Shown here in pieces: positions 44,172 to 46,583 of a DNA stretch of 49,767 bases (within the stretch, counting starts at the first letter, position 1; each line of letters begins with the position of its first letter). Origin of the DNA: Pseudomonadota bacterium (GTDB lineage: Bacteria; Pseudomonadota; Gammaproteobacteria; Burkholderiales; Rhodocyclaceae); NCBI GenBank assembly GCA_018241725.1, contig JAFEDI010000149.1, forward strand, positions 1 to 49,767, written 5' to 3'. The position numbers and the translations under genes were made by a program. A model generated the notes under the pieces. That model was not told where the DNA came from and searched no databases. It worked only from the letters and a program-made list of their open reading frames with translations.

Positions 44172-44196
44172 CGTCAAATTTCGAGTGGAGTTTGTG

Positions 44197-44817
44197 ATGC
44201 TGGATCAACTGATTATTGGCTTTGACAAGGCCTTGCGTACGGTCTTTGCGGACGCCTACACAGTGCGTCCGGTTCCGGGGGAGGCGCTGCCTGAAGCTGA
44301 TCTGAGTGAACAGGAGAAGCGCCGTGCGGCATCCCTGATGCGAGTGAATCACTGTGGTGAAATCTGCGCTCAAGCCTTGTATCAAGGGCAGGCGTTGATG
44401 TCTCAGAATGAAGGTATCAAGAAGGCGTTGGCAGGTGCCGCGCACGAGGAGACCGAGCACTTGGCTTGGACAGAGCGCCGGATTGCTGAGTTGGGTGGGC
44501 GTAAGAGCTTCCTTAACCCGCTCTGGTACGGCGGTTCGCTAGCTATCGGTATGCTAGCCGCGCGCTTTGGCGATGGGGTGAACCTCGGCTTTTTGGCCGA
44601 AACAGAGCGCCAAGTGGAGGCCCATCTAATCAGTCACCTGGGCCGCTTGCCGGAACAGGATCAGCGTTCGCGGGAAATTGTTACCCAGATGAAGATCGAC
44701 GAAGTTGCTCATGCCGATACGGCAGTCCGCCTCGGCGCGGTGGAACTGCCGACGCCAGTGAAGGCCGCTATGAAGGCGACCTCGAAAGTCATGACTGGCG
44801 TGGCTTACTGGGTCTGA
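44197..44817 (+). CDS. coq7: Demethoxyubiquinone hydroxylase Coq7 (di-iron)
   Basis: 206 residues from the ATG at 44197; GGAG 6 bases upstream decides this over the in-frame GTG at 44185. Performs the C6 hydroxylation in ubiquinone synthesis; in betaproteobacteria it replaces UbiF. Di-iron ligands are visible in [31 protein letters not shown] (ExxH), [14 protein letters not shown] and [16 protein letters not shown] (ExxH). Peripheral inner-membrane protein. Confidence 0.95.
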
Positions 44818-44828
44818 TCGGAAAGAGA

Positions 44829-45245
44829 CTAGACCTGAACGATTTCCCAGGTGTGTTCGATTTCCGCGGTCTTGCTGAGCATGATCGTGGCGGAGCAGTA
44901 CTTGTCGGACGACAGCTTGATTGCGCGCTCGACGCTCTCCGGCTTCAACTCATGGCCCGTGACGGTGTAGTGGAACGCTATACGGGTGAACACCTTGGGG
45001 TCGGCTTCGGCGCGTTCCGCCGTCAGGCGGACGCTGCAGCCCCGCACATCCTGCCGACCGCGTTTGAGAATCAGGACGACGTCAAATGCCGTGCAGCCGC
45101 CTGCGCCGGCCAGCATCAGCTCCATCGGTCGGGGGGCAAGGTCGCGCCCGCCGGCTTCCGGGGCGCCATCCATGGTGACGATATGGCCGGAACCAGTTTC
45201 CGCCATGAAGGTCATGTCGCCAACCCACTTAACTACGCACTCCAT
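44829..45245 (-). CDS. OsmC family protein (YhfA-like)
   Basis: 138 residues from the ATG at 45245, with AAGGGAAG just upstream (an in-frame TTG lies 5 codons earlier). The two redox cysteines of OsmC/Ohr-type peroxidases are at LAGAGGCTAFDVVLILK and SSDKYCSATIMLS. The compact size and the ADPKVFTRIAFHYTVTGHEL segment fit the YhfA group, for which peroxidase activity is less clear. Convergent with coq7 (11-base gap). Confidence 0.88.
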   Translation of the reverse strand: MECVVKWVGDMTFMAETGSGHIVTMDGAPEAGGRDLAPRPMELMLAGAGGCTAFDVVLILKRGRQDVRGCSVRLTAERAEADPKVFTRIAFHYTVTGHELKPESVERAIKLSSDKYCSATIMLSKTAEIEHTWEIVQV

Positions 45246-45487
45246 TCTGCTTCCCTTCAATATTGACTGTATGGAGAGGCTAGGCCCCTTCTTCCGGCGC
45301 TGATTGTAGCTGTCTTGCCGCGGGGCGCTGGAGTGTCTTTGTGCTGCAATGCCGCATTTTTGTAGGGCGAAGTTCTTATGAGTGCGCTGTGATGCGCGTC
45401 TTGGGTCGGTTGTTTTTCAATTAAATCATGGGCTTGAACGAGCTTTCTGTTGAATAAAAAAAATTTATCATTAGATACGTAATTTTA
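45246..45487. other. AT-rich intergenic region upstream of the predicted sRNA
   Basis: No gene supported. The stretch becomes strongly AT-rich from about 45420 (runs of A and T at 45456-45486), unlike the rest of the window, which would suit an UP-type promoter region for the predicted small RNA. The short open frames in it have no Shine-Dalgarno and no family resemblance. Confidence 0.5.
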
Positions 45488-45502
45488 TTGTGCAATGCAC
45501 AA
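45488..45502. promoter_or_regulatory. Operator-like inverted repeat upstream of the sRNA promoter
   Basis: TTGTGCAATGCACAA is a perfect inverted repeat (TTGTGC/GCACAA, 3-base spacer), centred about 50 bases before the predicted sRNA start and just ahead of its -35. The pattern recalls TGCA-rich operators such as those of polyhydroxyalkanoate regulators (PhaR); assignment is tentative. Confidence 0.4.
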
Positions 45503-45509
45503 AAAAATC

Positions 45510-45538
45510 TTGCACCAAGGGGGCAGGGGGGAGATAAT
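45510..45538 (+). promoter_or_regulatory. Predicted promoter of the sRNA
   Basis: TTGCAC (45510-45515), a 17-base spacer, GATAAT (45533-45538). The -10 matches the consensus at five of six positions, the -35 at three; spacing is optimal. Start expected near 45545. Confidence 0.45.
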
Positions 45539-45544
45539 TTGCTC

Positions 45545-45647
45545 AGTCCAGTTGCTTTTGTTGTTTGAAGCGGCTGAAAGGTGTCTCCTCCACCCTCCTC
45601 CTTTGGTGTGGATTTAGCGCAGATCTCCCCGATCTGCGCTTTTTTTT
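45545..45647 (+). ncRNA. Predicted ~100-nt small RNA with anti-Shine-Dalgarno loops
   Basis: Between promoter and terminator no open frame with a ribosome site is seen, but the RNA folds into clear elements. Stem 1: CAGTTGCTT (45549-45557) with AAGCGGCTG (45568-45576), nine pairs including two G-U that exist only in the plus-strand RNA, with a U-rich loop. Next, GGTG (45580-45583), CACC (45591-45594), GGTG (45605-45608): CACC can pair with either neighbour, exposing TCTCCTC or CTCCTCCTTT, both complementary to Shine-Dalgarno sequences. Last, the terminator at 45617-45647. This layout recalls Neisseria NmsR/RcoF and alphaproteobacterial CcsR-type RNAs. Expression is not shown by sequence. Confidence 0.5.
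45617..45647 (+). terminator. Intrinsic terminator of the predicted sRNA
   Basis: GCGCAGATC (45617-45625), loop TCCCC, GATCTGCGC (45631-45639), then TTTTTTTT. A textbook terminator with no protein gene upstream on the plus strand for 800 bases, which argues that an untranslated RNA is made here. Confidence 0.92.
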
Positions 45648-45662
45648 GCCTTGATTTAGTGT

Positions 45663-45692
45663 TTGACACTGGCCTTGAGCCTAGGGTAAAAT
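45663..45692 (+). promoter_or_regulatory. Sigma-70 promoter of rplM-rpsI
   Basis: TTGACA (45663-45668), an 18-base spacer, TAAAAT (45687-45692); a perfect -35 and a near-consensus -10. Leader of about 50 bases to rplM. Confidence 0.8.
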
Positions 45693-45749: not shown

Positions 45750-46178
45750 ATGAAAACGTTTTCTGCCAAGCCGCATGAGGTCAAGCGCGACTGGTTCGTC
45801 GTTGATGCGACGGACTTGGTCCTTGGTCGGCTTGCTTCCCAAGTTGCGCTTCGCTTGCGCGGCAAACATAAAGCCATCTACACCCCGCACGTTGATACCG
45901 GTGACTTCATCGTTGTCGTCAATGTCGACAAGCTGCGTGTAACCGGCACCAAGGCCCAGGACAAAAAGTACTACCGTCACTCCGGTTACCCGGGCGGTAT
46001 CTACGAAACCAATTTTACCAAGCTGCAGCAGCGTTTCCCGGCTCGCGTGCTTGAGAAGGCCGTCAAGGGCATGCTGCCCAAGGGGCCGCTCGGCTACGCC
46101 ATGCTGAAGAAGCTGAAGTGCTACGCCGGTGCTGAGCATCCGCATGCCGCACAGCAGCCCCAAGTTCTCGCGATTTAA
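45750..46178 (+). CDS. rplM: 50S ribosomal protein L13 (uL13)
   Basis: 142 residues from the ATG at 45750 (GAGGG upstream); begins [20 protein letters not shown] as in other L13 proteins, with [20 protein letters not shown] and VRGMLPK-like [19 protein letters not shown]. Early assembly protein of the large subunit. Twelve bases from rpsI, the near-universal L13-S9 operon. Confidence 0.98.
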
Positions 46179-46190
46179 CAGGAGCCGATA

Positions 46191-46583
46191 ATGGCTGTGA
46201 CTTACAACTACGGTACCGGTCGTCGCAAGTCGGCTGTTGCTCGTGTCTTCATCAAGAAGGGCTCCGGCAACATCGTCGTGAACGGCAAGCCGGTTGATCA
46301 GTTCTTCTCCCGTGAAACCGGCCGCATGATCGTGCGTCAGCCGCTGGTTCTGACCAACTTCGTCGACACCTTCGACATCCTGGTCAATGTGACCGGTGGT
46401 GGCGAATCCGGCCAGGCTGGTGCCGTTCGTCACGGCATTACCCGTGCGCTGATCGACTACGATGCAGAGCTCAAGTCCCCGCTGAAGAAGGCTGGCTTGG
46501 TTACTCGCGATGCCCGTGAAGTCGAGCGTAAAAAGGTCGGTTTCCGCAAGGCGCGTCGTCGCAAGCAGTTCTCCAAGCGTTAA
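46191..46583 (+). CDS. rpsI: 30S ribosomal protein S9 (uS9)
   Basis: 130 residues. Starts [20 protein letters not shown], contains [19 protein letters not shown] and ends in the basic tail [12 protein letters not shown] whose C-terminal Lys-Arg reaches the P-site tRNA. AGGAG precedes the ATG. Second gene of the operon, closed by the terminator at 46602-46627. Confidence 0.98.

Follow-up and report, generated by a model that had tools for sequence, protein, structure and literature searches.

The window analysed here is a 49,767-nucleotide stretch of DNA from a genome of the genus Zoogloea (host genome G000, in which the window is labelled G000:C54). Upstream of its ribosomal protein genes rplM and rpsI lies an intergenic region that holds a predicted sRNA gene and, in front of it, a PhaR-type palindrome. 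The features on which the argument turns are as follows:

44185-44817, plus strand: coq7 (Pfam PF03232), the second gene upstream of the sRNA
44829-45260, minus strand: OsmC-like gene (Pfam PF02566), the divergent neighbour
45341-45357, no strand assigned: degenerate distal PhaR-like site with 3 mismatches, 146 bp further upstream than the proximal one, in the interval between the OsmC-like gene and the sRNA
45487-45503, no strand assigned: PhaR-type palindromic operator with the sequence ATTGTGCAATGCACAAA, ending 6 nt before the -35 element
45510-45538, plus strand: sigma-70-like promoter TTGCAC-17-GATAAT, predicted start at about A45545
45549-45557/45568-45576, plus strand: 5' leader hairpin of 9 bp including 2 G-U pairs, read from the sequence
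45580-45583, 45591-45594 and 45605-45608, plus strand: GGTG, CACC and GGTG, elements of a proposed switch
45582-45591, plus strand: Site 1, single-stranded UGUCUCCUCC, a putative anti-Shine-Dalgarno (anti-SD) element
45582-45647, plus strand: RF02278 core, predicted to remain after processing as an RNA of about 66 nt; the unprocessed RNA would span about 45545-45647
45589-45612, plus strand: hairpin 1 (UCCACCC / GG-U-GUGGA), from the Rfam alignment
45596-45604, plus strand: Site 2, the hairpin 1 loop UCCUCCUUU
45616-45640, plus strand: intrinsic terminator with a perfect 10-bp stem, T8 run at 45640-45647
45663-45692, plus strand: rplM's own promoter-like pair TTGACA-18-TAAAAT, 3' of the sRNA terminator
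45750-46178, plus strand: rplM (L13), after which rpsI starts at 46191

A cmscan search of the whole window recovered a single match over a curated cut-off, namely RF02278, the Betaproteobacteria toxic small RNA, at 45582-45647 on the plus strand (65 bits against a cut-off of 50, E 6.1e-11, model positions 1-64 of 64). The traits of this family are found in the sequence: it contains two hairpins, the second of which is the terminator, and its 5' end and loop are CU-rich. The molecule therefore belongs to an already described family, and we regard it as virtually certain that it is a member of RF02278, the family of Burkholderia ncS27, which is related to Bordetella S17. Searches with a 35-nt core recovered no match in phage or plasmid collections, where a low-complexity filter may hide matches. 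The elements that an earlier note had read at this place, i.e. a promoter-like pair, a 9-bp stem with G-U pairs, a GGTG-CACC-GGTG segment and a T8 terminator with no protein gene ahead of it, are all present, the last because the nearest upstream gene, the OsmC-like one, is on the opposite strand. The -35-like TTGCAC (45510-45515) agrees with TTGACA at 3 of 6 positions and the -10-like GATAAT (45533-45538) scores 5 of 6, with a spacer of 17 nt; this pair is not among the output of a consensus promoter scanner for the window, and a comparison of upstream sequences showed the CTTG and ATAAT elements to be alike in most Zoogloea orthologs. Judged by its letters, the sRNA promoter is a weak, sigma-70-like one.

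The stretch 45540-45650 folds at -40 kcal/mol (z -5.16), and none of 200 shuffles folded as well. Across 20 Zoogloea sequences 99.0% of the cells of the three helices were paired, a value equalled by 0 of 500 shuffles, and 3 pairs had changed on both sides, which 3 of the 500 shuffles matched; slid versions of the structure reached at most 39.6% paired with 1 pair changed on both sides, a comparison biased towards the unshifted structure, which was derived from the window sequence. The covariation in these 20 sequences falls on the 5' leader hairpin (97.2% of cells paired, 2 pairs changed on both sides) and on the terminator, in which a U-A pair is replaced by C-G in two of them. Hairpin 1, for which predicted pair probabilities are about 0.98 in four of the five lower pairs, is invariant among them, and in the wider paralogs the two sides of its stem change together (UCCAC/GUGGA 47 times, UCCAA/UUGGA 6 times and UCCGU/UCGGA once among 66 distinct 5' parts). 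Both CU-rich elements are conserved throughout the family: Site 1 (GTCTCCTCC) is preserved in 100 of 105 copies, and the Site 2 loop contains CTCC or CCTC in 101 of 105 and CTCCTCC in 85. These results support the sRNA gene with two CU-rich anti-SD elements that the earlier note had proposed. The leader is more variable; its sequence differs among the 16 non-Zoogloea orthologs, whose mean folding z is -1.17, with 9 of the 16 lower than -1; the mean is -1.77 for 19 Zoogloea leaders, and the matching stretch in 70 paralogs, mostly promoter sequence there, has a mean of -0.52. The leader hairpin is probably absent from a processed form of the RNA.

Six RF02278 copies over the cut-off are encoded in the host genome. 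Across 60 genomes, the host included, 45 had a match at E<=1e-4, giving 110 matches in total, and none of 14 control genomes had one. Our comparison tables cover 105 of these matches (35 orthologs and 70 paralogs), with the other five left out. The L13 gene was found in 56 of the 60 genomes, and 35 of the 56 have a same-strand sRNA copy 83-264 nt before rplM. When 80 named rplM loci, a set that overlaps the 60 genomes in some members, were searched with a covariance model of our own built from 28 cores, 41 proved to have the RNA ahead of rplM; these 41 include Thauera, Azoarcus, Aromatoleum, Dechloromonas, Cupriavidus, Ralstonia, Herbaspirillum, Undibacterium, Aquitalea, Vogesella and Andreprevotia, with L226 as a weak member (E 0.03). 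When ten of these named sRNA loci were compared with Rfam, 9 matched RF02278 at E<=0.01, 8 of them over the cut-off, and L196 gave no match. Within the fetched sequence coq7 was present in 27 of the 41 named loci with the sRNA versus 7 of the 39 without it. By its sequence context the window sRNA is a positional ortholog of the copies that stand beside rplM in many Rhodocyclales and in some further betaproteobacteria, and the reported position of Bordetella S17 beside coq7 fits this orthology.

The palindrome TGCRNYGCA recurs in the upstream regions of the 105 matches compared (of 110), and the window operator differs at one position from the published PhaR consensus of Ralstonia eutropha, YTKNTGCRNYGCANMAR, as given in the available part of PMC12849132. 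According to the same source, gel shifts confirmed three PhaR sites at phaP3, phaP1 has one site immediately ahead of its -35 element, and PhaR can also activate, as at phaP3; the same kind of core is described for S. meliloti PhaR (PMC12542648, in part). In the window as a whole 7 sites with up to two mismatches were found versus 7.2 expected by chance, so a lone site says little without its conservation. Between -150 and -1, sites of this quality occur in 34 of the 35 orthologs and in 37 of the 70 paralogs. The exact 9-base core is found within 150 nt in 21 of 35 and 42 of 70, respectively, versus shuffle means of 1.0 and 1.8. These counts are not independent, as the sequences are related. 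In the control stretch from -300 to -151 the core was present in 4 of 69 paralogs, and the site frequency was high in orthologs (18 of 30) because many of these have a second, distal site. Of the 41 named sRNA loci, 31 have a site in the bin from -200 to -1 and 21 in that from -400 to -201, while the 16 remaining bins have 0-3 apiece; the background in the host genome is 70 sites in 412,325 bases, or 0.034 per 200 nt. Among the paralog cores, 38 of 45 start at -36 to -30 from the RNA core, i.e. over the expected -35 position.

As a check of the motif we built a matrix from 37 sites in 17 phasin upstream regions of our own choosing (14 from relatives, one per genome, and the 3 best of 5 host hits), all 17 of which contain at least one site; the two weakest host hits (L241 and L242) had no site with up to two mismatches in 400 nt. 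On this phasin-only matrix the window operator scores 23.5, while 2738 background tiles, each of 150 nt and most of them coding DNA, reach 18.0 at most. The 99th percentile was exceeded by 34 of the 35 orthologs, by 45 of the 70 paralogs and by 33 of the 41 named loci. An operator match thus stands in the sRNA promoter, and its motif is common to phasin genes, as would be predicted for a member of the PhaR regulon. A PhaR gene (PF07879) is present in the host genome (G000:C68:47179-47358) and was found in 47 of the 60 genomes; in G044 and G049, two genomes without a PhaR match, even the best site within 200 nt of the sRNA copies has five mismatches or more.

Several observations point the other way. 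Of the six host copies only three, the window copy, L003 and L005, score high on the phasin matrix, and the PhaR-type site is absent from L002, L004 and L006. In the -150 to -1 stretch 33 of 70 paralogs have more than two mismatches and 28 lack the core. No site with up to two mismatches lies between -200 and -1 in 10 of the 41 named loci, and five of the loci (L217, L230, L167, L235 and L226, including Ralstonia L230 and Cupriavidus lacunae L235) have no proximal site even at 3 mismatches. Conversely, G034 has a site, but no PhaR gene was found in that genome, and the upstream region of the host phaR has no site. On balance PhaR probably controls the sRNA promoter, as suggested by the position and conservation of the operator-like site.

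Other promoter types are apparent among the copies without the core. In 8 of these 28 paralogs, versus 0 of the 42 with the core, ACAATCAA or ACAATAAA is found 20-55 nt upstream (L002, L004 and L006 of the host genome, and L102, L113, L130, L131 and L135), and they form a putative second promoter class of sRNA paralogs. Three others, L101, L105 and L109, have a AACTTTGCA-like sequence in common at the -35 region.

A reading that keeps the same sRNA would have the palindrome used by a regulator other than PhaR, or chiefly for the divergent OsmC-like gene. The latter is found in 36 of the 41 named loci with the sRNA, and a second site further upstream, nearer to this gene, is found in 21 of the 41, at -238 to -300 from the sRNA. 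In the 18 named loci with both sites, the distance between them is 144-158 bp in 15, or about 14-15 helical turns, and 165-187 bp in three; the pair may serve DNA looping or joint control of the OsmC-like gene. However, the short paralogs elsewhere in the genomes have the site at -35, the same motif lies before all the chosen phasin genes, and of the named loci without the sRNA 14 of 39 keep the OsmC-like gene, yet a site lies within 500 nt of rplM in only 4 of 37. We therefore consider such an alternative unlikely and retain control of the sRNA by PhaR.

The conserved position of the sRNA on the same strand before rplM could also suggest a cis-acting leader or attenuator of the rplM-rpsI operon. 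Against this, 75 of the 110 family matches are not beside a found rplM (in G001 no rplM was found), 21 of 56 rplM genes have no nearby match, and between the sRNA and rplM stand a perfect terminator and the separate promoter-like pair that the promoter scan detected after it. A cis-leader is thus very improbable and was rejected, as most family matches are not beside rplM. The earlier note had placed the sRNA beside the L13-S9 operon; its adjacency to rplM is conserved, but no functional tie to L13-S9 was found.

The same note had proposed two mutually exclusive hairpins as a built-in switch, in which CACC would pair with either GGTG and so expose one or the other anti-SD loop. The pairing is feasible on paper, and the GTG within the upstream GGTG is invariant in the 20 Zoogloea sequences. 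However, the alternative 4-bp hairpin has -3.6 versus -9.1 kcal/mol and a predicted pairing probability of 0.006-0.008, i.e. below 1%; it has no compensatory change, its outer pair of four is lost in 4 of the 20 sequences, and the upstream GGTG, present in 15 of the 19 Zoogloea orthologs, is rare elsewhere, with 2 cases among 16 other orthologs and 1 among 70 paralogs. Given the weak energy, the lack of covariation and a GGTG mostly confined to Zoogloea, the two-state switch was rejected, and there is scarcely any likelihood left to it. A functionless chance array of promoter- and terminator-like sequence can be dismissed: single patterns are weak, the terminator-like one being no better than chance by itself (1 found versus a shuffle mean of 1.7), but the RF02278 match, the folding z and the conservation and covariation stand against it.

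To return to the RF02278 sRNA, its possible targets were sought in the host genome through complementarity upstream of start codons. The exact complement of Site 1, GGAGGAGACA, occurs 0-8 nt before ATG at 9 places, and AAGGAGGAG occurs 3-9 nt before ATG at 20 places that include doubtful starts (e.g. L244, L247, L248 and L257), both with 0 in the reversed control; the two lists overlap at five places. A search with GTGGAGGAGA gave 7 places, of which two are one start region and several are poor starts. The Shine-Dalgarno control AAGGAGATA occurs at only 5 places, too few for an enrichment test; among background genes 4 of 318 have at least 9 exact complementary bases before the start. Pfam was consulted for 21 of the 30 distinct candidate starts and for 4 of the 5 controls. 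The predicted targets include a branched-chain amino-acid permease, EutC, a pyridine-nucleotide oxidoreductase, a 3HB-oligomer hydrolase, an acyl-CoA synthetase, a Phenol_MetA_deg protein, two DUF1302 proteins, two porins, a phenol hydroxylase subunit, an enoyl-CoA hydratase, an alpha/beta hydrolase, a periplasmic binding protein, a MadM symporter, a peroxidase, an Oxidored_q6 protein and a cytochrome c, with an acyl-CoA dehydrogenase at one GTGGAGGAGA start; a phage-sheath protein and a peptidase M23, also among the candidates, do not fit the uptake and catabolic pattern. This predicted set resembles the targets that the available accounts report for ncS27 and S17. We consider it very likely that the sRNA is an anti-SD repressor, and the earlier suspicion of an anti-SD riboregulator is correct. 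As a separate observation, the 3HB-oligomer hydrolase start (L249, G000:C51:10335-10350) reads AAGGAGGAGACAC-ATG, a perfect Site 1 match, which may be a possible direct RNA link to PHB use.

The closest known systems are Burkholderia cenocepacia ncS27 and the other 'toxic' or double-hairpin sRNAs of RF02278, with which the window sRNA shares the Rfam family, the double hairpin, the CU-rich sites and the multi-copy state. As far as the available descriptions go, Burkholderia members are expressed as short independent RNAs and are toxic when cloned in E. coli. In the accessible part of PMC5688073, a longer member can be processed to the short form; ncS27 itself is processed, attenuates growth upon overexpression and has CU-rich parts predicted to pair with RBS regions. 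The portions of this literature at hand call the regulator of ncS27-type sRNAs unknown, whereas the Zoogloea copy, one of six in its genome, has a PhaR-type operator. Bordetella pertussis S17 has a 5' end closely similar to RF02278 and adjoins coq7; it is processed by RNase E and represses targets at their RBSs, but differs in its much higher level in the Bvg+ mode, its longer leader and its 190-nt primary RNA (PMC11722255, in part). A PhaR-controlled sRNA has a precedent in Sinorhizobium meliloti MmgR, which is repressed by PhaR/AniA through a promoter site; it differs in belonging to another RNA family and in being reported to tune phasins (PMC12542648 and PMC8401924, both in part), and the suhB/MmgR model (RF00519) gave the window sRNA 22.7 bits, below its cut-off of 41. 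The comparison with Neisseria NmsR drawn in the earlier note is apt: in a permissive search the NmsRb model (RF02877, Neisseria RcoF1) matched 45553-45645 over its full length (1-91) with 40.9 bits, although below the cut-off of 52. NmsRA/NmsRB (RcoF) are alike in having three stem-loops and two anti-SD sites, and in the available descriptions NmsR represses TCA-cycle mRNAs; they differ as tandem genes connected to RelA. The Rhodobacter CcsR 'cuckoo' RNAs also have CU-rich anti-SD loops, and differ in forming a tandem set beside ccaF1; no CcsR-named family was among the permissive Rfam matches to the window sRNA region.

The family, the synteny, the structure and the conservation of an operator-like site shared with phasins are established by the sequences, and on them we base the following model. 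The sRNA would be transcribed as an RNA of about 103 nt and probably shortened to about 66 nt by a cut near T45582. The 5' end UGUCUCCUCC and the loop UCCUCCUUU of this RNA would then pair with Shine-Dalgarno sequences and block the translation of uptake and catabolic genes. Without PHB, PhaR would bind beside the -35 element and repress the promoter. As PHB granules form, PhaR would be drawn to them and the RNA would be made together with the phasins, such that further carbon uptake, oxidation and 3HB-oligomer hydrolysis would be damped. The repressive sign, suggested by the operator position at -35 and by phaP1, is tentative, as PhaR can activate too, for instance at phaP3. Taken as a whole, an RF02278 sRNA that acts as an anti-SD repressor of uptake and catabolic genes from a promoter under PhaR is an explanation in which we have good confidence.

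The molecule itself is known, and what appears to be new is the PhaR-type operator of its promoter. Among the open-access papers searched, none connects PhaR with RF02278, ncS27 or S17, and as a whole word PhaR is absent from the main texts of PMC5688073, PMC4603805, PMC11722255 and PMC10175445. The accessible part of PMC5688073 mentions an upstream motif common to three homologues (supplementary figure), so that an earlier notice of the operator motif is possible. PhaR control is hence offered as a well-supported, testable prediction. It would supply the RF02278 family with a signal, carbon storage, and would give PhaR a fast post-transcriptional arm, in parallel to the alphaproteobacterial PhaR-MmgR pair with an RNA of another Rfam family. 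More broadly, and with somewhat less assurance, we favour the view that in PHB-storing betaproteobacteria PhaR controls, besides phasins, a multi-copy anti-SD sRNA family, of which half of the host copies would respond to PhaR and the rest act via other promoters, such that stored carbon directly sets the translation of uptake and catabolic genes, that of 3HB-oligomer hydrolase among them, and the family serves as an integrator of several storage or starvation signals. Zoogloea is a floc former of sludge, where carbon storage matters.

Some further copies are worth recording. Upstream of rplM in G024, L058 is a decayed sRNA-like stretch (TCTCCTCCTCACTCG...) that is not listed at E<=1e-4, with a PhaR-type palindrome still upstream of it. 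The host copies L002 and L006 (G000:C93) are about 9 kb apart, and by eye an apparent alpha/beta-hydrolase gene lies near each. Finally, the single-contig relative G042 has nine RF02278 matches, several with altered loops and stems, and this set is natural material for the study of target drift.
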